Shown: one piece after another, positions 12,117 through 40,788 of the stretch
Position numbering within the stretch: position 1 is the stretch's first letter
Layout: every line of letters begins with the position of its first letter
Assembly: GCF_001019715.1 (NCBI RefSeq)
Contig: NZ_BBXJ01000001.1
Coordinates: 1,302,001 to 1,366,000 of the forward strand
From: Rodentibacter caecimuris
Lineage (GTDB): Bacteria; Pseudomonadota; Gammaproteobacteria; Enterobacterales; Pasteurellaceae
Length of the DNA stretch: 64,000 nt
Reading direction: 5' to 3'
Translations under genes and position numbers: made by a program
Notes under the pieces: model-generated
Database searches by the model: none
What the model was told of the DNA's origin: nothing
Seen by the model: the letters and a program-made list of their open reading frames with translations, nothing else

Positions 12117-12419
12117 TTAAAGATTGAAAGTCACCGTTTTCCCTGTAGGTAACTCAACGGATAAACTTAATGCACCGCCCATCGCTTCTACATAACGTTT
12201 AACCGATGATAACTTAATATCATTTCCTCTTTTTTCTAAAGCTACAACCGACGGTTGTTTAATATTTAACGCTTCTGCCATTTGCTGTTGTGAAATTTCA
12301 AATTCTTCACGAATGCGATGTAATTGTAACTCCATACGCATTTCTTCAGCCATAGCTTTGACTTCAGCGCGCTTTTCAGCCGGAAGCCCATTCATCAATT
12401 CTTTAAATTTTACGCTCAT
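12117..12419 (-). CDS. HigA-type antitoxin with XRE helix-turn-helix
   Basis: A 100-residue protein. A coiled N-terminal part (residues 1-40) precedes a clear XRE helix-turn-helix: ISQQQMAEALNIKQPSVVAL, then KRGNDIKLSSVKRYVEAMGG. The C-terminus (LSLSVELPTGKTVTFNL) is the usual tail of HigA2-type antitoxins. It overlaps the upstream toxin gene by 17 bp, giving toxin-first order as in higBA systems. It would neutralise the toxin and repress the pair through the helix-turn-helix. Confidence 0.85.
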   Translation of the reverse strand: MSVKFKELMNGLPAEKRAEVKAMAEEMRMELQLHRIREEFEISQQQMAEALNIKQPSVVALEKRGNDIKLSSVKRYVEAMGGALSLSVELPTGKTVTFNL

Positions 12420-12795
12420 TTTCTTGCTCCTGTGAAAATGTAGAAAGGTAATTATCGTAAGTTTGTTCTGCTAAAGCGATCATCTCTTTATAAAAAAGCT
12501 TTTCTTTTTTGCCTTTTTTGCCTTTTTTATATCCACCACACAACACAATAGCTTGTCTAATAGGGTCGAAAATAAAAAACAAACGAAATACCGATAACTT
12601 AGACTGTACACGCAATTCTTTTAAATTGGGATATTTTGAGCCTTGAATAGTATCAGCATAAGGTCTTCCTAGCTGTGGACCTTCTGTTGATAATAATTCA
12701 AGTGCAGCGTAGATTTTTAATAAATCCTCTTCTATTAAAGATTCAAACCAATTCAAAAGTGGGTCTTGTAAAATGATTTCCCATTCTTGCTTCAT
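12403..12795 (-). CDS. RelE/HigB-type toxin of a type II TA pair
   Basis: A 130-residue protein of the RelE/ParE fold: WFESLIEEDLLKIYAALELL then EGPQLGRPYADTIQGSKYPN and LKELRVQSKLSVFRLFFIFD, followed by IVLCGGYKKGKKGKKEK. The Arg residues and the 'R.FF.F' strand match HigB mRNA interferases that cut mRNA on the ribosome. It sits between tail assembly genes and tape measure, on the same strand as the late operon, with a 69-bp gap upstream that could hold its own promoter. Confidence 0.85.
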   Translation of the reverse strand: MKQEWEIILQDPLLNWFESLIEEDLLKIYAALELLSTEGPQLGRPYADTIQGSKYPNLKELRVQSKLSVFRLFFIFDPIRQAIVLCGGYKKGKKGKKEKLFYKEMIALAEQTYDNYLSTFSQEQENERKI

Positions 12796-15978: not shown

Positions 15979-17941
15979 TTAAGCGTTGGTTACACGTACA
16001 ATGCCGCGGTGGTCTAATACATTTACACCGGCATCAATACGTACTTTGGTAGTAACGCCATCGACAGTAAAGCCGGTTTGTTGGTCGATAAACGGGGTTT
16101 CCACACCGTTTAAGTAGCTGACCTCAATCGCCTCTTTATTGATGAGATACCATTGTTTGGCATTGTGTGCCTGTAAACGTTGGGATTTAGTGACCGGCAC
16201 AATATTTTGTAACGGGTTGATAATGCCCGCATTAATATCCGCCCCCTCTACTGAGCTTGAACCTAACACTTGTTTGGTTTTGGTGTAAAGTGCGGTCGGT
16301 GTCAACAATAAATCCGGTTCAATCGCAAGCTGTTTGCCGTCAAAGGATTTTTGCGCATTCATTAACTGAATGGCGCTATCAATGGTGGCAATATCAATTT
16401 TCCCACCGGTTAGCGTGTTTTTGTGCGCTGCGTCATACAATTTTTTGTTGTCGTAGCTCATTACCGGATCACCGGTTAATTGGGCAAAGACCAAATCGGC
16501 AATAGTCGCGCGTGCCGCTTGTCCGAGTTTATACGGAATAGCGGTCAGCATATTCATATCGTCATTGATGATGGTCTGACGGGTAATGCTGAACAATCCA
16601 CCGTAAGTGGCAAGGGAAACGTGCATACCGGTATCACCCAAGGTCACGTAAGTATATTCTGCCCCTTCACGCACCATTGGCAAGCTATCAAAGCCCCCTA
16701 AGCCCACACGATAAGCCGGACGGAAGTCGGTTAAGGTGCCTTTGTGTGTCCATTGCTCAAAGTTTTCAGTGCTTTCAGCCCAACCTTTCAACACGGATTT
16801 ATGCGCTACATCAATTAAGATTTGTCCGAAATCAGAAGTGGAATGGGTAAACGCCATGCCGACGATTTGCATTGGGTTGTAATTGAGTACGCTCACACCA
16901 CGATCGACCAATGACGCACGGGCAAGCTCACGCAAGGTCATTGCATTGTAAGCGTTGTCTTTTTGGTTTTCTTCAAGACCGGCTCGGGCAAGTAATGAGG
17001 CTTTTACACTATCACTGATAAGATTTCCGTTGCCCGCGTGGATATGGCTTTGTGGGACGCTTGGCGTGGTGCCTTCACCGAGTTTTGCCAGTAATTTATC
17101 TTTGGCTTGTTCAGCGGTGATATTGACATCGCCCAAACATTCCACTAATAAATCGTTAAATTGTCCGTTAAACGGCGCAAACACCGCTTGAATAGTTTGG
17201 TTGCGTTGTGCCATTGCCGCTTGTACTTGTGCCGTATTATCGACAGCAGCAGCCGGTTTTTCGACTTGTGCTTGCACTTGTTTTGGTTCATCGCTTTTTG
17301 CCACTGTTTGGGTATTGGCGTTGCCTTGTGGCTTAAACAACATGTCTTTCATTGCTTTTGGCATATTTGAGTAATCCTCTAGTTTTTTTGATTGAATAGA
17401 AGCCATTGTCACAAGTGGCTCGGCGAGTTTGTCGGCGAAACCCTGTTCAACACATTCTTTTGCGTTTAGCCAAGTTTCCGCTGAAAGCATTTCTGCAAGT
17501 TCTTCAGGTGTTTTACCTGTTTTTTCGGCATACGCAGGAATCAACGTATTTTCGACTTTATCGAGTAAATCTGCATATTTACGCATATCTTCGGCATCAC
17601 CGCCCTGAATCCCCCACGGTTTATGAATCATCATCATGGCATTTTCAGGCATAATGACTTCATTCCCGACCATGGCAATAACAGACGCCATAGAGGCAGC
17701 AAGACCGTCGATATAGACGGTCTTATTAGCCGGGTGATTTTTCAGTAAGTTGTAAATAGCAATACCGTCAAATACATCGCCACCGGGCGAGTGGATATGC
17801 AAATTAATTTGTTTCAGGTTATTAGGCTTTTAATTCCTTAGAAAATTGTTGTGCTGTTACGCCCCAGAAACCGATTTCATCATAGATTGAGATGTCGGCC
17901 GTATCCTTGGCAGCGGCTTTAATGGAAAACCAAGATTTCAT
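15979..17941 (-). pseudogene. ClpP-like prohead protease fused to major capsid protein, frameshifted near the start
   Basis: From the ATG at 17941 (AGGAG upstream) 39 codons read MKSWFSIKAAAKDTADISIY to QFSKELKA, then TAA. The next frame continues LKQINLHIHSPGGDVFDG and is open for about 610 codons. A small indel near 17818-17826 therefore splits the gene. The ClpP (S14) part shows GGDVFDG, the nucleophile region DGLAASMASVIAM and MMIHKPWG. The capsid part begins around residue 250 and has the HK97-like features expected of the 'prohead protease/major capsid fusion' family. Unless the downstream part starts at an alternative codon (TTG at 17802), no complete capsid protein is made. Confidence 0.85.
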
Positions 17942-18000: not shown

Positions 18001-18648
18001 TTAATCTAGTAACTGCTGAAAGGCTTTGACTAATGCCAATCGTTCAGTATTGGATTGAATAAACTGTTTGGCTTTCGCCATTGTTTGTTCAAGCGGATAT
18101 TTGAAATTGTAAAGATATTGCCCGCCAATCTCATTTTCCATTTGTTTTGGAATGTTCGTGCCACGTAATTTTTCTTGCATTTCGTGCGCTTGGAAACAAA
18201 AGCTATACATTCTGATAAATAGGGCTAATGCTTCTTCGCTTTGAGAAATATGATCAATGCGGTAATCCGGTTCCGGCAAGGCAAGCTGTTTCGGCTCGTT
18301 CCGGTGCATTGCTAAAAATGCTCTCAAGACGATTAGGTGGAATTTAGGGCTTATCCAAGTTGCATAGGCTAGGACTAATGCCTCACACACCCACGTTCCT
18401 TGAAGTTCAGGGTTGCGACCGCCACGGACAATTTTGACCGATGCGCAGATCTGCGCATCGCTATTTTTAGAGTTTTGAGAATTTGCGGAACGATCAATTT
18501 CAGCAATTAAACCCTGTGTTGTATCAAGGCGCATAAACTGATTAGGACGATGTTTAGGATCGTTACCACATACAACGTGAAGATCATTTAAAGAAAAAAG
18601 ACCATCTAAGGAACGAATTTTAGTATTAAGGATAGTTAAATTTGACAT
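18001..18648 (-). CDS. KilA-N domain protein, likely antirepressor
   Basis: A 215-residue protein. The N-terminal two thirds form a KilA-N domain (FSLNDLHVVCGNDPKHRPNQ; GRNPELQGTWVCEALVLAYA; ISPKFHLIVLRAF), a DNA-binding module used by phage antirepressors. The C-terminal part is helical and unassigned. It stands behind a C4-type RNA leader, the known control element of phage ant genes, so an antirepressor role that is silenced during lysogeny is likely. It occupies the place where terminase and portal genes should be, so those were replaced or lost. SD GAAGGAA precedes the ATG at 18648. The frame is intact. Confidence 0.82.
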   Translation of the reverse strand: MSNLTILNTKIRSLDGLFSLNDLHVVCGNDPKHRPNQFMRLDTTQGLIAEIDRSANSQNSKNSDAQICASVKIVRGGRNPELQGTWVCEALVLAYATWISPKFHLIVLRAFLAMHRNEPKQLALPEPDYRIDHISQSEEALALFIRMYSFCFQAHEMQEKLRGTNIPKQMENEIGGQYLYNFKYPLEQTMAKAKQFIQSNTERLALVKAFQQLLD

Positions 18649-18670
18649 ACTGATTTCCTTCTGAATAGAA

Positions 18671-18770
18671 GCCCTAATTTTGAGTTAGGGTGATCGACAG
18701 CTCAAAACTGGTCAGTATTCCAGCGGACGTATTCCCCTTTCGGGTGTTGTATTAGTCGCACTGTCGATCA
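18671..18770 (-). ncRNA. C4-type antisense RNA in the leader of the KilA-N gene
   Basis: On the minus strand, a 10-bp closing stem TGATCGACAG...CTGTCGATCA (18761-18770 with 18691-18700) encloses three elements. They are CCC-gaaa-GGG, the hairpin CTGG-AATACTGA-CCAG (18708-18723) and a free TTTTGAG (18701-18707). Outside it, CCCTAA-CTCAAAA-TTAGGG (18672-18690) shows CTCAAAA in its loop, complementary to TTTTGAG. The AATACTGA loop is complementary over 7 bases to TCAGTAT, which covers the KilA-N start codon (18647-18653). Two antisense contacts with the downstream leader are the mark of phage C4 RNA (P1/P7/N15 type), which blocks translation of the antirepressor gene. Confidence 0.8.
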
Positions 18771-18852
18771 TTGATTACATTGTTGTTTTTGTATCGTTAA
18801 ATATTGTGGTAAAGAGAAAGAGATCACAAGCTTTAGATACAAAAAAATCACG

Positions 18853-18999
18853 CTAACGGGGTGAATACCGATACTGATAAAGGCTTTTGAGACCTAGCTC
18901 TTTAAGAGCTTGAGAAGAATACTCTTTAATTTTTGTTCTGTCAAATTCTCTCAAAATAAATTCGGCTTGCCTTTCTGTATCCAAAACTATACAATACAC
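18853..18999 (-). pseudogene. short coding-like remnant upstream of the KilA-N leader
   Basis: A frame of 48 codons, with GTG as the only possible start, reads YCIVLDTERQAEFILREFDR then KIKEYSSQALKELGL and ends YQYRYSPR. It looks like the C-terminus of a helical phage protein and has no ribosome site. It overlaps the promoter of the TA pair on the other strand. I cannot name the parent gene. It may be the last trace of the packaging region. Confidence 0.3.
18967..18995 (+). promoter_or_regulatory. promoter of the toxin-antitoxin pair at 19019
   Basis: TTGCCT and TACAAT are separated by 17 bp, about 25 bp before the toxin start. The sequence around the -10 element (CTATACAATACACC) may also be the antitoxin operator, but no clear palindrome is seen. 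Confidence 0.6.
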
Positions 19000-19018: not shown

Positions 19019-19333
19019 ATGTATATCATTGAAGAAACCGATATATTTTCCAACTGGTTAGAAAATCTAACCGATGAACTGGCGATAGTTAATATTGTTG
19101 CCCGTATCGAACGTGCCAAGCTAGGCAATTTCGGCGATCATAAATCCGTAGGCAATGGAGTATTTGAAATGCGCATCACAAAAGGAAAAGGCTATCGGCT
19201 GTATTATGCACGCAAAGGAGAAATTACTTATCTTTTACTTTGTGGCGGTGATAAATCAACGCAAGATAAAGATATTTTACAAGCCAAAGCGATATGGACA
19301 GAACTCAAACAGGAGCTTAAAAATGACCATTAA
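19019..19333 (+). CDS. RelE/ParE-type toxin (HI1419-like)
   Basis: A 104-residue toxin of the 'addiction module killer' family: FSNWLENLTDELAIVNIVAR, then VFEMRITKGKGYRLYYARKG and YLLLCGGDKSTQDKDILQAK. These are the conserved features of Gp49/HigB-like toxins next to HI1420-type antitoxins in H. influenzae. AAGAGGCGATT precedes the ATG. It is on the plus strand, against the surrounding phage genes, with its own promoter and terminator, so it is an independent cargo cassette. Confidence 0.87.
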   Translation: MYIIEETDIFSNWLENLTDELAIVNIVARIERAKLGNFGDHKSVGNGVFEMRITKGKGYRLYYARKGEITYLLLCGGDKSTQDKDILQAKAIWTELKQELKNDH

Positions 19334-19616
19334 AATTCAAGAATTTGATGCCGCGCGTTATTTAAAAAATGAAAAAATGATGGCGGCTTATTTAGCAACA
19401 GTTCTTGAAGACGGTTCAACCGAAGAATTTATTCAAGCACTCAATACTGTTGCCCGTGCAAAAGGGATGACAGAATTAGCCGAAAAAACAGGGATTGGGC
19501 GAGAAAGCCTTTATAAAACTTTATCAAGCGAGAAACCACGCTTTGATACCATTATGAAAATCATCAATGCACTAGGCTTAAATGTGTCTGTCACGCCTAA
19601 AACGATGAGTGCATAA
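19323..19616 (+). CDS. antitoxin (HI1420-like) with helix-turn-helix
   Basis: A 97-residue antitoxin. It starts at the ATG at 19323, overlapping the toxin end by 11 bp, behind AGGAGCTTAAAA. It begins MTIKIQEFDAARYLKNEKMM and has AYLATVLEDGSTEEFIQALN, then the helix-turn-helix GMTELAEKTGIGRESLYKTL. The family binds its toxin and represses the shared promoter. A longer in-frame reading back to 19155 overlaps the toxin gene and lacks a ribosome site. Confidence 0.88.
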   Translation: MTIKIQEFDAARYLKNEKMMAAYLATVLEDGSTEEFIQALNTVARAKGMTELAEKTGIGRESLYKTLSSEKPRFDTIMKIINALGLNVSVTPKTMSA

Positions 19617-20222: not shown

Positions 20223-20594
20223 TTAAGCAAGAAAAATACATTTATTTTCGGATAGCATTAGTAACAATGACTGTTTAGCTGCAAAAAGATGCTTTTTATA
20301 AAAATCTTCTTTAATATCTAACTCAAATAATATCCTCTTTACCTCTTGTTTTGATACATACTTCCGCATAAATACTTCAAATAGTAATGGTGAAACTTTA
20401 CACATAACAAGTAATTTATCGTGTATGAGCATTCCCATTTCATCGCTTAATGGTATAACAGGATAACGATCTTCAGGAGTTGCCTCACGCAAAAAAGGTT
20501 GCATAGAGGGATATGAGATATTCGGGTTGGCTCGACACCATCTTCCATAGCTTATAGATAAAGCTTCAATGTTAGTAAAAGTATAACCTCTCAT
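20223..20594 (-). CDS. antitermination protein Q family
   Basis: A 123-residue protein directly after RusA, where lambdoid phages place Q. It begins with ALSISYGRWCRANPNISYPS and contains IPLSDEMGMLIHDKLLVMCK, the pattern of the phage antiterminator Q family (Phage_antitermQ). It would let polymerase read through terminators into the late operon. It overlaps the RusA stop by 4 bp. With the next late genes deleted, its natural target is unclear. Confidence 0.65.
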   Translation of the reverse strand: MRGYTFTNIEALSISYGRWCRANPNISYPSMQPFLREATPEDRYPVIPLSDEMGMLIHDKLLVMCKVSPLLFEVFMRKYVSKQEVKRILFELDIKEDFYKKHLFAAKQSLLLMLSENKCIFLA

Positions 20595-23508: not shown

Positions 23509-24243
23509 CGTAAATACTCCGGAATTAAACTTGGAGCGATGTTTAATTTTCTTCCCACGCTCCATGTGCCGCTATCGGCAAAAGGATCATTGCTTGCACT
23601 TGAGTTTACCGTTCGATTAGGCGAGGACTTCAGCGCAAATAACCCGGTGTAGGTGTTGGCGATAGATTGATCTAAAATTGCCCTCGCCAAATCAGGATCA
23701 CCCCCACTGAGTTTTTCCAAGTCTCGTAAATATCGATTAATCGTATCTTGGGTTTTAATTTCCGCCCGCTTGGCTTTACGCATTCGGCAATAAGCGATCC
23801 ATGTCTCACGATCGACATAACCCGGCAAAGGAATATTTTCTGCGTTGATTTTTCCAATCGCAGGCGTAGCCGATTCCCCTTGGGGGGGATATTTTGTATA
23901 TTGTTTTTTGTAGAGTGCCAATTTTTGGTACTGGTTTAAAATCGTTATTTTCATCAATGAAAAAGTTGAGTGAAAACTCGTTAATTTCACCTTGTTTACG
24001 CTCAATATTAACCAGATTCACCGATTCTAATTCTTCTATTGCTGCATAAGCCGTTTTTCGATCTTTAATACCGCATTGAGCCATAAATTGAGAGGTAGAA
24101 ATACGATCGGAATCTTTTCTCCAACCAGTCGTTTTCCGTGCAATGAGCAAATAACACTTAATAGCCTTGCCGGAGAGTGAATCTAAGTATTCATCAACAA
24201 AAGAATTTGGAATTTGAAAAGAATTGGGAATAAATCGACTCAT
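23505..24243 (-). pseudogene. replication protein O, frameshifted at a C7 tract
   Basis: The first frame (ATG 24243) begins MSRFIPNSFQIPNSFVDEYL with the winged-helix domain (ISTSQFMAQCGIKDRKTAYA) and runs to KISPPRG. The true continuation ESATPAIGKINAENIPLPGY, then RETWIAYCRMRKAKRAEIKT, is in another frame that ends PEYLR at 23505. The switch falls at CCCCCCC (plus-strand G7 at 23882-23888). O binds the phage origin with P. A length change in a homopolymer could revert easily, so slipped-strand switching or a sequencing error should both be kept in mind. Confidence 0.8.
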
Positions 24244-24932
24244 AACATCAACTTCGAAGCGTAACGTGACGCAATGAATTCAATACCTTTGCTTGTCACT
24301 CGTGTTTGTGTGAAATTGTGACCGTGTTCTGCCGTGCCGGTTTTGACGGTGAACAATTCTTTTGAATGAGCAGATTGATACGGCAACAAATTACCGGATT
24401 GACGATAAAGCAATCTGTCATCAATCAAGCGATTGATTAATGCTCTTTCCGGCATCTTCAAAATCTTAGCGGTTTCGCGTAAGGATTTACTTGTTCCCAC
24501 TTCGACATAATGATCTACAAAAGCCACTTTAGGTGCATTACGTTCTTTCTCAGCTTGTAATTCAGCCGCTAAAAGTAATGCCTCAGAAAATGATTGTGGG
24601 ATATTTATAGCCGGTTTTTGTTGATTTTCGAGTTCTTGCCAGCGATCAATAATACGTTTGCGTAATTTGACGTTATAACCGGCAATGAGCGTAAGGGTTA
24701 AATCGTAAGGTAAAAGAAATTCTCGGTAAGTTTGCCCATTTTGGGAGTATGTCCAAAAATGGGCATACCCCTCAGAGTTAATTTCAAGTTGCTCAAACAT
24801 CATTTCAATATCACGAGTAACATGTCGATGTTCTTTTTCACACAATTCCGCAATCTCTCGACTGCTCATTGTCAAAGTGCTTGCATTTTCGTTAATTATT
24901 GGTAATAATTTACCCACTAAATACATCTCCAT
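24240..24932 (-). CDS. Rha/ANT-type phage regulatory protein (antirepressor)
   Basis: A 230-residue protein. The N-terminal half is a Rha domain (MSSREIAELCEKEHRHVTRD, then YREFLLPYDLTLTLIAGY). The C-terminal half is a KilAC/ANT domain (VDHYVEVGTSKSLRETAKIL, RALINRLIDDRLLYRQSG, TRVTSKGIEFIA). It ends overlapping the start of O by 4 bp. It lies in the early operon and is one of two antirepressor-type genes in this prophage. The frame is intact. The exact start is unsure (M1, M3 or M22). Confidence 0.82.
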   Translation of the reverse strand: MEMYLVGKLLPIINENASTLTMSSREIAELCEKEHRHVTRDIEMMFEQLEINSEGYAHFWTYSQNGQTYREFLLPYDLTLTLIAGYNVKLRKRIIDRWQELENQQKPAINIPQSFSEALLLAAELQAEKERNAPKVAFVDHYVEVGTSKSLRETAKILKMPERALINRLIDDRLLYRQSGNLLPYQSAHSKELFTVKTGTAEHGHNFTQTRVTSKGIEFIASRYASKLML

Positions 24933-25795: not shown

Positions 25796-26455
25796 ATGGC
25801 AACAACATTAGGCGAAAGAATCAAGGCTTACAGGGAGCAACTTGGTATAAGTCAAAAGGAATTAGCTGAACGTAGCAATCAGCTAGATAAAACAAATTCA
25901 AATTGGGGGCAGCCAAGAATAGCTAACTATGAGAAAGGTAATCGAACACCGAATCTTGATGATATAAAAATCTTAGGAAAAGTCCTAAATGTAGATCCAC
26001 AAGTTTTGGCTTTTGATACCAATGTTGAACCAATAAAAATTGTAAGATCTCGCGAATATCCACTGCTTAGCAAAGTACAAGCCGGCTTATGGACCGGAAT
26101 TGATTATCTCCAAAACATTGATGAGGGCTTTGAATTTTTATCAACCAACACACTTGCTTCCGAAAATGCTTTCTTTTTGCAAATATCCGGACAGTCAATG
26201 GAAACTCGCTTTCACGAAGGGGATTTAGTGTTAATCGATCCGGACCTTGCTCCGACACTGGGCAAATTTGTTGCGGCTGTTAATGGTGATGGTGAAGCAA
26301 CATTTAAGAAATATAAAGAACTTGGTATTTTTGATGAATAGGGTTCTCCACACTTTGAATTAGTGCCGCTTAACGATGTATTCCCAACATTAAGCTCTCT
26401 CAACCAAGAGATACGCATTATAGGTGTAGCCGTTGAGCATCGACAAGGCTTGTAA
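25796..26455 (+). pseudogene. CI-type repressor (XRE + S24 peptidase-like) with a TAG at codon 182
   Basis: The product begins MATTLGERIKAYREQLGISQ and has the helix-turn-helix NSNWGQPRIANYEKGNRTPN. The S24 domain shows the nucleophile SGQSMETRFHEGD and the Lys in GDGEATFKKYKE. At 26339-26341 a TAG interrupts GIFDE|GSPHFELVPL. The frame then runs on for 37 more codons to a TAA at 26453, ending IIGVAVEHRQGL. CAG to TAG is likely. The protein would lose its last 37 residues, part of the C-terminal dimerisation/cleavage domain. The prophage also lost its packaging and capsid function, so relaxed repression may be tolerated. Confidence 0.85.
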
Positions 26456-39069: not shown

Positions 39070-40788
39070 ATGACATTAACAATTCCAAGAGCCCAATATG
39101 TCGCAACTTATGGCCCGACGGTGGGCGATAGCGTGCGTTTAGGCGATACGGATTTATGGGCAACCATTGAACAAGATTTACTCACTCAAGGTGATGAATG
39201 TAAGTTTGGCGGTGGAAAAAGTGTCCGCGACGGTATGGCACAATCCGGTACGGCAACGCGTGATAATCCCAATGTCCTTGATCTTGTCATCACTAATGTG
39301 ATGATTATTGATGCGAAACTTGGCATTATCAAAGCAGATATTGGTATTCGTGACGGGCGAATCGTTGGCATAGGTCAAGCCGGTAATCCCGATACAATGG
39401 ACGGCGTTACCCCAAATATGATTATCGGTGTCAGTACAGAAGTCCATAATGGCGCTAATTTAATTGCGACAGCAGGGGGAATTGATACCCACATTCACTT
39501 TATCTGCCCGCAACAAGCCCAACACGCCCTCGAAAACGGTACAACAACATTAATTGGCGGTGGTACAGGCCCGGCAGACGGTACGCACGCCACCACCTGT
39601 ACACCGGGAGCGTGGAATCTGCAAAGAATGTTTCAAGCAGCGGAAGCATTGCCTGTCAATGTCGGCTTTTTCGGTAAAGGCAACTGTTCAACCCTTGAAC
39701 CGTTAAGAGAGCAAATTCGTGCCGGCGCATTAGGTTTGAAAATTCATGAAGACTGGGGGGCAACACCGGCAGTCATCAATGCGGCACTGAAAGTCGCAGA
39801 CGAAATGGACGTACAAGTAGCGATCCACACCGATACCCTCAATGAGAGCGGCTTCTTAGAAGATACGATGAAAGCCATTGACGGACGAGTGATCCACACT
39901 TTCCACACTGAAGGTGCTGGCGGCGGACACGCTCCCGACATCATTAAAGCGGCAATGTATCCGAATGTACTCCCCGCTTCCACCAACCCGACCCGTCCGT
40001 TCACGGTAAACACCATTGACGAGCATTTGGATATGTTGATGGTTTGTCATCATTTAGATAAGTGCGTACCGGAAGATGTCGCGTTCGCAGACAGTCGTAT
40101 CCGTCCTGAAACCATTGCCGCAGAAGATATTCTGCACGATATCGGCGTATTCTCAATTATGAGTTCCGACTCGCAAGCAATGGGACGTGTCGGTGAAGTG
40201 GTCACCCGTACTTGGCAAACCGCAGACAAAATGAAAGCACAACGTGGCGAACTTGGTTCGGAAGGCAACGATAACTTCCGCATTAAACGCTACATCGCCA
40301 AATACACTATCAACCCGGCTATTGCTCACGGTATTGCGGATCACGTTGGCTCATTAGAAGTCGGCAAAATTGCCGATATTGTGTTATGGAAACCGATGTT
40401 TTTCGGTGTAAAACCTGAAACCGTTATCAAAAAAGGCTTGATTAGCTATGCCAAAATGGGCGATCCGAATGCCTCAATCCCTACACCACAACCGGTATTC
40501 TACCGCCCGATGTATGGCAGCCAAGGCAAAGCTACCGCCCAAACCGCTGTGTACTTCGTGTCACAAGCCGGTGTTGATGCGAATATTAAAGAAAATTTCG
40601 GTATCGAAAAAGAGCTCATTGCGGTAAAAGGCTGCCGTAATATTGGCAAAAAAGACTTGGTTCATAATGATGCCACACCTGAAATTACTGTCGATCCGGA
40701 ACGTTACGAAGTTCGAGTGAACGGCGAACTTATCACTTGTGAACCCGCCGAGAAAGTGCCATTGGCTCAGCGGTATTTTATGTTCTAG
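39070..40788 (+). CDS. ureC: urease alpha subunit, catalytic
   Basis: 572 residues carrying the dinickel active site. It shows HIHFICPQQ (metal-binding His pair), [12 protein letters not shown] with the carbamylated Lys near residue 222, [27 protein letters not shown] and the flap [20 protein letters not shown] with its Cys and catalytic His. It hydrolyses urea to ammonia and carbamate. All catalytic residues look present, so an active enzyme is expected. Confidence 0.98.

Follow-up and report, generated by a model that had tools for sequence, protein, structure and literature searches.

The window, by which we mean the whole 64,000-nucleotide stretch of Rodentibacter caecimuris DNA that was analysed, carries a prophage whose genes run in the order O-like, P-like, NinB, HNH, RusA and Q-like, followed by a lipoprotein-like ORF, a toxin/antidote pair, an RNA/KilA-N cassette, a head protease/capsid gene and tail genes. 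The CI-like repressor gene of the prophage lies at 25796-26341 and a further antirepressor gene, of the Rha/KilAC type, at 24240-24932. The interval from the Q-like gene (20223-20594) to the head protease/capsid gene (15979-17802) contains four ORFs of at least 60 aa: lipoprotein-like, toxin, antidote and KilA-N. Neither a terminase nor a portal turned up there, or among the window ORFs that were scanned (a part of the 159 listed). The original prediction had placed the KilA-N gene where packaging genes should be, in a prophage without its lytic core, and this placement is supported as far as it was tested.

Several other features of the window deserve mention. The listed frame of the head protease/capsid gene (minus strand) takes an internal TTG as its start, and further upstream the frame looks interrupted. 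The toxin/antidote pair (19019-19616, plus strand) is of the HI1419/HI1420 type (Gp49-like, dnstrm_HI1420) and is divergent from the RNA cassette, and the tail module contains a second toxin plus HTH pair (12117-12795, minus strand). At 39525-39221 (minus strand), the Rfam model for the 5' ureB sRNA (RF02514, 51.9 bits) matches antisense to a 572-aa ORF (39070-40788, plus strand), a match that may merely mirror conservation of the protein gene.

The cassette itself comprises the following features, all on the minus strand:

18001-18648, minus: gene of a 215-aa KilA-N protein, the presumed target of the RNA (Pfam PF04383, E 3.1e-21)
18647-18653, minus: downstream loop target TCAGTAT, a 7-nt exact complement of the loop, over the ATG at 18648-18646
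18655-18662, minus: Shine-Dalgarno-like AGAAGGAA of KilA-N (from sequence)
18672-18690, minus: downstream hairpin CCCTAA-CTCAAAA-TTAGGG with the tail target (18678-18684) in its loop (from fold and sequence)
18684-18769, minus: antisense RNA of about 86 nt, sRNA-Xcc1 family RF02221 (Rfam 70.6 bits, gathering 53, E 8.4e-11)
18701-18707, minus: single-stranded tail TTTTGAG (UUUUGAG) between hairpin II and the closing stem, the second contact
18708-18724, minus: hairpin II, GCTGG..CCAG, with the specificity loop AATACTGA at 18712-18719 (from Rfam alignment and fold)
18735-18744, minus: hairpin I, CCCGAAAGGG inside AATACAACACCCGAAAGGGGAATA (from Rfam alignment and position)
18841-18864, minus: terminator-like TCACCCCGTTAGCGTGATTTTTTT, at which a short IsrK-like RNA is predicted to have its 3' end (from its family-wide position)
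18871-18877, minus: upstream loop complement TCAGTAT, exact over 7 nt and 7 nt 3' of the tail complement
18881-18895, minus: upstream hairpin AGGTCTCAAAAGCCT, which presents the tail complement CTCAAAA (18885-18891), exact over 7 nt
18916-18944, minus: promoter-like TTGACA-17-TATTCT, where the operon transcript is predicted to start (matching 10 of 12 consensus bases)

The RNA and its target sites at the window locus

The RF02221 model aligns with the RNA end to end (18769-18684), directly 5' of the KilA-N gene. The 133-nt leader folds with an MFE z score of -3.10, and none of 200 shuffles was as good. The closing stem, predicted as a closed stem of 10 bp, is borne out as 9 pairs between GATCGACAG (18769-18761) and CTGTCGATC (18700-18692), or 11 when flanking bases are included. 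The loop of hairpin II, AAUACUGA as RNA, is complementary to the start codon region of KilA-N: AATACTGA matches TCAGTAT (18653-18647), which takes in the first two bases of the ATG, over the 7 bases that had been claimed, and the duplex with a 12-nt loop segment is calculated at about -8.5 kcal/mol. The other hairpin that had been proposed, showing CTCAAAA in its loop, is found with the stem CCCTAA..TTAGGG and the loop sequence at 18684-18678; its complement TTTTGAG, said to lie inside the leader, is at 18707-18701 and within the RNA. A consensus scan marks the hairpin at 18690-18672 as terminator-like (1 found versus 0.3 in shuffles). When the downstream leader was dinucleotide-shuffled 20,000 times, a two-part site of 7+7 nt arose in 2 shuffles and one of 6+6 nt in 65.

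A second copy of both target sites, in the same order and missed by the original prediction, lies upstream of the RNA at 18891-18871, and both contacts are exact and present twice at this locus. The corresponding shuffles of the upstream region (20,000, dinucleotide) gave a 7+7-nt two-part site in 11 and a 6+6-nt site in 225. The consensus scan found no more promoter matches in the upstream region than in shuffles (2 found, mean 2.1) and did not flag the terminator-like sequence at 18864-18841, and both signals at the window therefore rest on family-wide conservation. In the folding model this terminator is weak, with a pairing of 0.07 when free and 0.20 when both sites are blocked.

Pfam places the gene product in the KilA-N type (PF04383), as first proposed. 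Against PHROG, the protein matches 129 (transcriptional regulator) and, weakly, 2127 (anti-repressor). The P22_AR_C domain, which Pfam finds in the proteins behind the related loci L002 and L004, is absent from the window protein, whose antirepressor function is therefore only putative.

Family assignment and relation to known antisense systems

The RNA had been called a C4 RNA, as in phages P1, P7 and N15. The two-contact logic behind this claim stands, upheld by the covariation described below, and the membership does not: the C4 covariance model (RF01695) had no match at E<=10 in the region and RF02221 matched at 70.6 bits, which rules out filing the RNA as C4. The c4-a1b1 model (RF03163) had no match in 18500-18950, and neither did the isrK model (RF01394) at E<=10. 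The family c4-2 (RF02944), which we take to be C4-like, was likewise unmatched at E<=10 in a search over all 4227 Rfam families. The name c4-2 appears in the available part of PMC11701678. RF02221 belongs to no Rfam clan and C4 to CL00128, and the two models did not cross-match on 10 RF02221 and 2 C4 loci at E<=0.5. The R. caecimuris genome has three C4 matches elsewhere, two of them over the cut-off.

On this sequence evidence, the RNA is a member of RF02221, a family with C4-type two-contact, double-target organisation. We found no earlier statement of that organisation in the literature searched, which was mostly without subscription papers, and no paper in that same, mostly open, literature treating sRNA-Xcc1 together with an antirepressor. 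The only paper found there that has both sRNA-Xcc1 and C4 antisense RNA gives them, in its available part, as separate table rows (PMC12189769).

The likeness to C4 of P1 and P7 (RF01695, with targets in RF03163) extends to the closing stem, two hairpins, a loop II that pairs at a ribosome site, a tail that pairs just 3' of the RNA, copies of both sites 5' of the RNA and an antirepressor operon. C4 itself is a processed RNA of 77 nt that represses antirepressor synthesis. Measured in the same way, P1 C4 pairs its loop TCACTAAC with b2 at the icd ribosome site and its tail CTGTCAA with a2 just 3', and has a1/b1 upstream; the upstream CTCAAAA hairpin of the window is analogous in position to a1 and the upstream TCAGTAT to b1. 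The differences are that hairpin I of the window RNA is an AATACAA..CCCGAAAGGG..AATA element, whereas C4 has its own stem there, and that, unlike in P1, the loop target lies over the start codon and an icd-like ORF is absent between the RNA and the target gene.

IsrK (STnc1160, anrP) of Salmonella Gifsy-1 (RF01394) is, in the available text of PMC4825925, a short terminated 5' RNA with a read-through mRNA, a stable processed RNA behind the terminator and an antirepressor-like gene downstream. The window may share this layout: sequence signals for a promoter, a short RNA and a terminator are present, but the terminator is weak and unflagged. IsrK works via orf45 coupling, whereas the window has no evident leader ORF. 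According to the same partial text, short IsrK activates translation in trans, and its authors discuss a CI-like termination role of the processed RNA, for which the co-expression data are no simple fit (PMC4825925). The phage P4 CI RNA, which we liken to the window RNA by its description there, is an antisense RNA with upstream and downstream complementary sites; it differs in causing transcription termination (PMC4825925). Separately, the isrK model scores 35.1 bits (gathering 50) on the a1b1/terminator part of the P1 immI operon (L278, 24231-24312). A relationship between IsrK and the C4 leader is thus hinted at by sequence.

The namesake of the family, sRNA-Xcc1 of Xanthomonas, shares RF02221 with the window RNA. 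Going by the title of Chen 2011, it is reportedly trans-acting and integron-carried. It measures 88 nt by RACE and about 100 nt on Northern blots, in the part of PMC2996969 available. The accessible data of PMC5331693 list an 89-nt Rfam-annotated RNA of Escherichia coli EDL933 with 40293 reads and, on our interpretation of the column, a ribosome coverage value of 0.02; the RNA annotation was not found in the EDL933 stretch at that paper's coordinate, and the paper's own assembly record differs. For Xylella, transcripts of all seven copies are described in cells in the available portion of PMC12189769. These reports show relatives of the window RNA to be real small RNAs. In print, RF02221 figures as a virulence-linked, trans-acting RNA of plant pathogens and as a vesicle cargo with predicted plant targets.

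Covariation of contacts and the genes behind the RNAs

The genome of R. caecimuris has eight RF02221 matches, seven over the cut-off, and two of these paralogues amount to a natural test of compensation. The window RNA (L003) and L002 are identical at 82 of 86 positions, and all four differences fall in the loop. The upstream and downstream target sites change to fit, so that AATACTGA goes with TCAGTAT and AGTTTCGA with TCGAAACT. L004-L006 have one loop and one site in common. When the eight RNAs were compared with all eight loci, the best downstream match of each was its own, with L008 reaching only a tie, at 6 nt. Off-diagonal upstream matches of 7-8 nt were present between the L002 loop and L004-L006, between L007 and both L001 and L008, and between L001 and L008, and the specificities within the genome are therefore not perfectly separate. 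L006 (G000:C2 16424-16510) is on a 19-kb second contig, and its loop is the same as that of two chromosomal copies.

Family-wide, two sets of RNAs were used. The first was collected with the Rfam model only and no sequence pattern, from the 8 own copies and 28 of 77 matches in relatives (19 of 61 genomes, R. caecimuris included, have a match), and comprised 33 distinct RNAs. With a two-part site scored at a tail match of at least 5 nt and a loop match of at least 6 nt, 31 of the 33 have the upstream site, 30 the downstream site and 29 both. Permuting the targets 1000 times gave means of 10.1 (maximum 19), 7.9 (17) and 3.4 (9), respectively. The four exceptions are L149, which has neither site, L146 and L159, with the upstream site only, and L150, with the downstream site only.

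The second set consists largely of core-pattern matches in viral and genome contigs, with at least 275 loci. From at least 260 core matches, 250 were kept (of the 260, 7 lay too close to an end and 3 were dropped for a weak stem), giving 214 distinct RNAs and 138 distinct loop segments. A downstream ORF was lacking in 9 of the 138, leaving 129, and fewer than 250 nt of upstream sequence in 5 of these, leaving 124. Among the matches listed, 82 of 129 loops (permuted mean 6.5, maximum 16) are complementary over at least 6 nt to positions -25 to +6 relative to the start, and 79 of 129 tails (permuted mean 16.0, maximum 28; 1000 permutations for both) are complementary to the initiation window, with both contacts in 64 and neither in 32. 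The ends of the loop sites, among these listed matches, fall at -11 to -7, the Shine-Dalgarno region, in 65 of the 82 and at -2 to +2 in 10. Of the 124 loci listed, 99 have an upstream two-part site (permuted mean 9.1, maximum 20) and 76 a downstream one (mean 4.5, maximum 10; 300 permutations each); 14 have neither, 34 have the upstream site alone and 11 the downstream site alone. Scoring by longest run overlooks partial or G-U pairing, and some of the misses may be real sites. The shuffles and permutations rule out chance complementarity.

The tail contact covaries, as TTTCGAA with TTCGAAA, TTTTGAG with CTCAAAA, TTCTGAA with TTCAGAA and TTTACGAA with TTCGTAAA. An alignment of 64 RNAs, drawn from 66 diverse ones with two left out, has changes on both sides in three of the four pairs of the hairpin II stem, and between 3 and 11 sequences break each pair. 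RNAalifold recovered hairpins I and II from these 64 RNAs but missed the closing stem, as its length varies and is misplaced in the alignment; since the extraction demanded a closing stem, support for it is claimed from Rfam alone. The invariant core in the alignment is partly a product of the search pattern and is unused as evidence. The putative two-contact antisense logic on the KilA-N gene is well supported by this covariation. A GC-rich variant in IMG/VR contigs (L012, L015, L024, L041 and similar) has a loop around CATGCGG, followed by TTGACG..TAGCCTAT and a GGGGGCGACCCC leader; neither two-part site was found in L012 and L015.

The upstream element has a fixed form. Among the matches listed, 94 of 99 elements have a T-run after the upstream loop site, versus a fraction of 0.37 at random offsets, and a promoter with at least 9 of 12 consensus bases precedes the element in 64 of the 99 loci, where single-base shuffles expect 6.0. 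The gap between tail and loop sites has a median of 4, the loop site is a median of 28 nt from the T-run (IQR 27-29), and the distance from the T-run to the RNA is 48 (43-58.5) family-wide.

Pfam scans of the downstream genes covered 87 plus 39 proteins, leaving out 3 of the 129 ORFs that were shorter than 60 aa. The 87 proteins, selected by a loop match of at least 6 nt within 150 nt downstream and a nearby start codon and including some doubtful cases, have KilA-N (17), P22_AR_C (13), Rha (12), Bro-N (12), AntA (10), P22_AR_N (6) and ORF6N (5) domains, families that may overlap. The remaining 39 have P22_AR_C (6), SymE (4), Rha (3), Bro-N (3), AntA (2) and KilA-N (2). The genes behind RF02221 RNAs thus often carry predicted antirepressor-type domains, and a few encode SymE (L160, L169, L267 and L270). 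The RNA stands immediately before ant in E. coli phage Rac-SA53 and before 'anti-repressor Ant' in Pasteurella phage Pmp3, and 158 of 5426 complete E. coli genomes contain sequence resembling the leader and RNA of Rac-SA53.

Orphans, with an upstream site and no downstream site, make up 34 of the 124 loci among the matches listed, and 23 of them come from Xanthomonas, Pseudoxanthomonas, Rhodanobacter, Lysobacter, Luteimonas and Dyella. Xanthomonadales loci including L160, L167, L196 and L212 have the upstream site and terminator, with the start-site target absent. Many orphans precede a protein with a GYFLPE-like motif, judged by eye, and no Pfam family was found for the downstream proteins of L199 and L212. 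L160, of X. hortorum, precedes symE and differs from the window locus in having the upstream site without the downstream one. In the available part of PMC12444791, a cassette of symE and sRNA-Xcc1, with the RNA upstream of symE, is the most widespread integron cassette in the Xanthomonas set. A search for a trans target of one orphan RNA in its own genome found nothing convincing: of three matches, two were in its own locus, and the third was no more than expected from the reversed-pattern control, in which one match arose.

Mechanism and meaning

To the observed sites, layout, covariation and antirepressor-type neighbours we add a model in which we infer transcription, processing, silencing and a decoy or attenuator role. 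Transcription of the operon would start near 18910, and part of it would end at the terminator-like sequence near 18841, yielding an RNA of about 70 nt with both target sites. Read-through transcripts would give rise to the RNA of about 86 nt (18769-18684) and the KilA-N mRNA. The loop of hairpin II would pair with UCAGUAU over the KilA-N start codon and the tail UUUUGAG with CUCAAAA in the hairpin loop that shortly precedes the start, the two contacts jointly blocking translation, and the same RNA would pair with the short upstream RNA, which may be a decoy, as in IsrK, or an attenuator. By analogy with these systems, the RNA most likely silences KilA-N at translation initiation. We consider it highly probable that the locus is a prophage immunity-type antisense RNA switch on KilA-N, similar to P1 C4 and with an IsrK-like leader.

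The strongest alternative is that the RNA acts mainly by transcription attenuation, with the RNA and the nascent upstream element favouring the terminator, as for P4 CI with seqA and seqC (PMC4825925, available text), and that the contact at the start codon is secondary. Such a mechanism accords with the commoner upstream site (99 versus 76 of the 124 loci among the matches listed), which is kept in 34 of the 124 without a downstream site, and with its fixed spacing to the T-run. When the sites were blocked in the folding model, terminator pairing rose by more than 0.1 in 36 of 94 elements and fell in 2, the mean going from 0.71 to 0.85. However, for the window the model gives a small effect and for the Xanthomonadales orphan L196 none (1.0 before and after blocking), and attenuation is therefore possible, though we lean against it as the main effect; attenuation alone also does not need a loop site on the Shine-Dalgarno sequence or start codon, where the positions given above place it.

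We also considered that the RNA acts as an antitoxin that prevents toxicity of the KilA-N product, following type I toxin-antitoxin logic, in what would be an addiction module in a dead prophage. SymE toxin genes do stand behind the four RNAs named above, and P1 KilA is annotated 'product can kill host', but many of the neighbours are antirepressor-type regulators rather than small toxins, and we judge this reading unlikely. Slightly more doubtful still is a decaying, functionless remnant in a defective prophage, to which the missing terminase and portal among the ORFs scanned and the internal TTG of the capsid frame would point; against this, the RNA, both double sites, the promoter-like sequence and the 215-aa frame are undamaged, and where the loop departs from that of its paralogue the sites change with it. 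That the RNA is a trans-acting regulator of host or virulence genes, with incidental local complementarity, follows the predicted targets and regulation given for sRNA-Xcc1 and the Xylella homologues in the available parts of PMC2996969 and PMC12189769, but is highly improbable when most loci show covariation of loop and tail with the local sites and the one orphan searched has no convincing second target in its genome.

Returning to the immunity-type switch, each RNA of the family could, like C4 of P1 and P7, silence mainly transcripts of its own specificity, because a loop of its own, with sites to match, is present in most of the members examined. In the window, the switch may have no lytic target left, because the prophage is defective. 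More tentatively, and as a possibility that we would not yet call probable, RF02221 may be a large family of re-addressable immunity RNAs built on one scaffold whose loop and tail change freely; each would fit an upstream decoy or attenuator of its own and, as a rule, the start site of its own antirepressor. A chromosomal branch, in the six genera named above, may be a domesticated form that retains the upstream element and has lost the start-site target. If so, this branch would guard SymE or small genes, or block incoming phage antirepressors in trans, and the description of sRNA-Xcc1 as a virulence sRNA would need revision.

The pair formed by the window RNA and L002, differing just in loop and sites, is a ready compensatory-mutation test provided by nature. 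An Rfam family annotated merely as sRNA gains a proposed mechanism and a testable target, and the results suggest that C4-type control of prophage antirepressors reaches wider than the C4 model shows. They also suggest that the addresses of these RNAs evolve by matched changes at three places, in which case superinfection specificity would be predictable from sequence.
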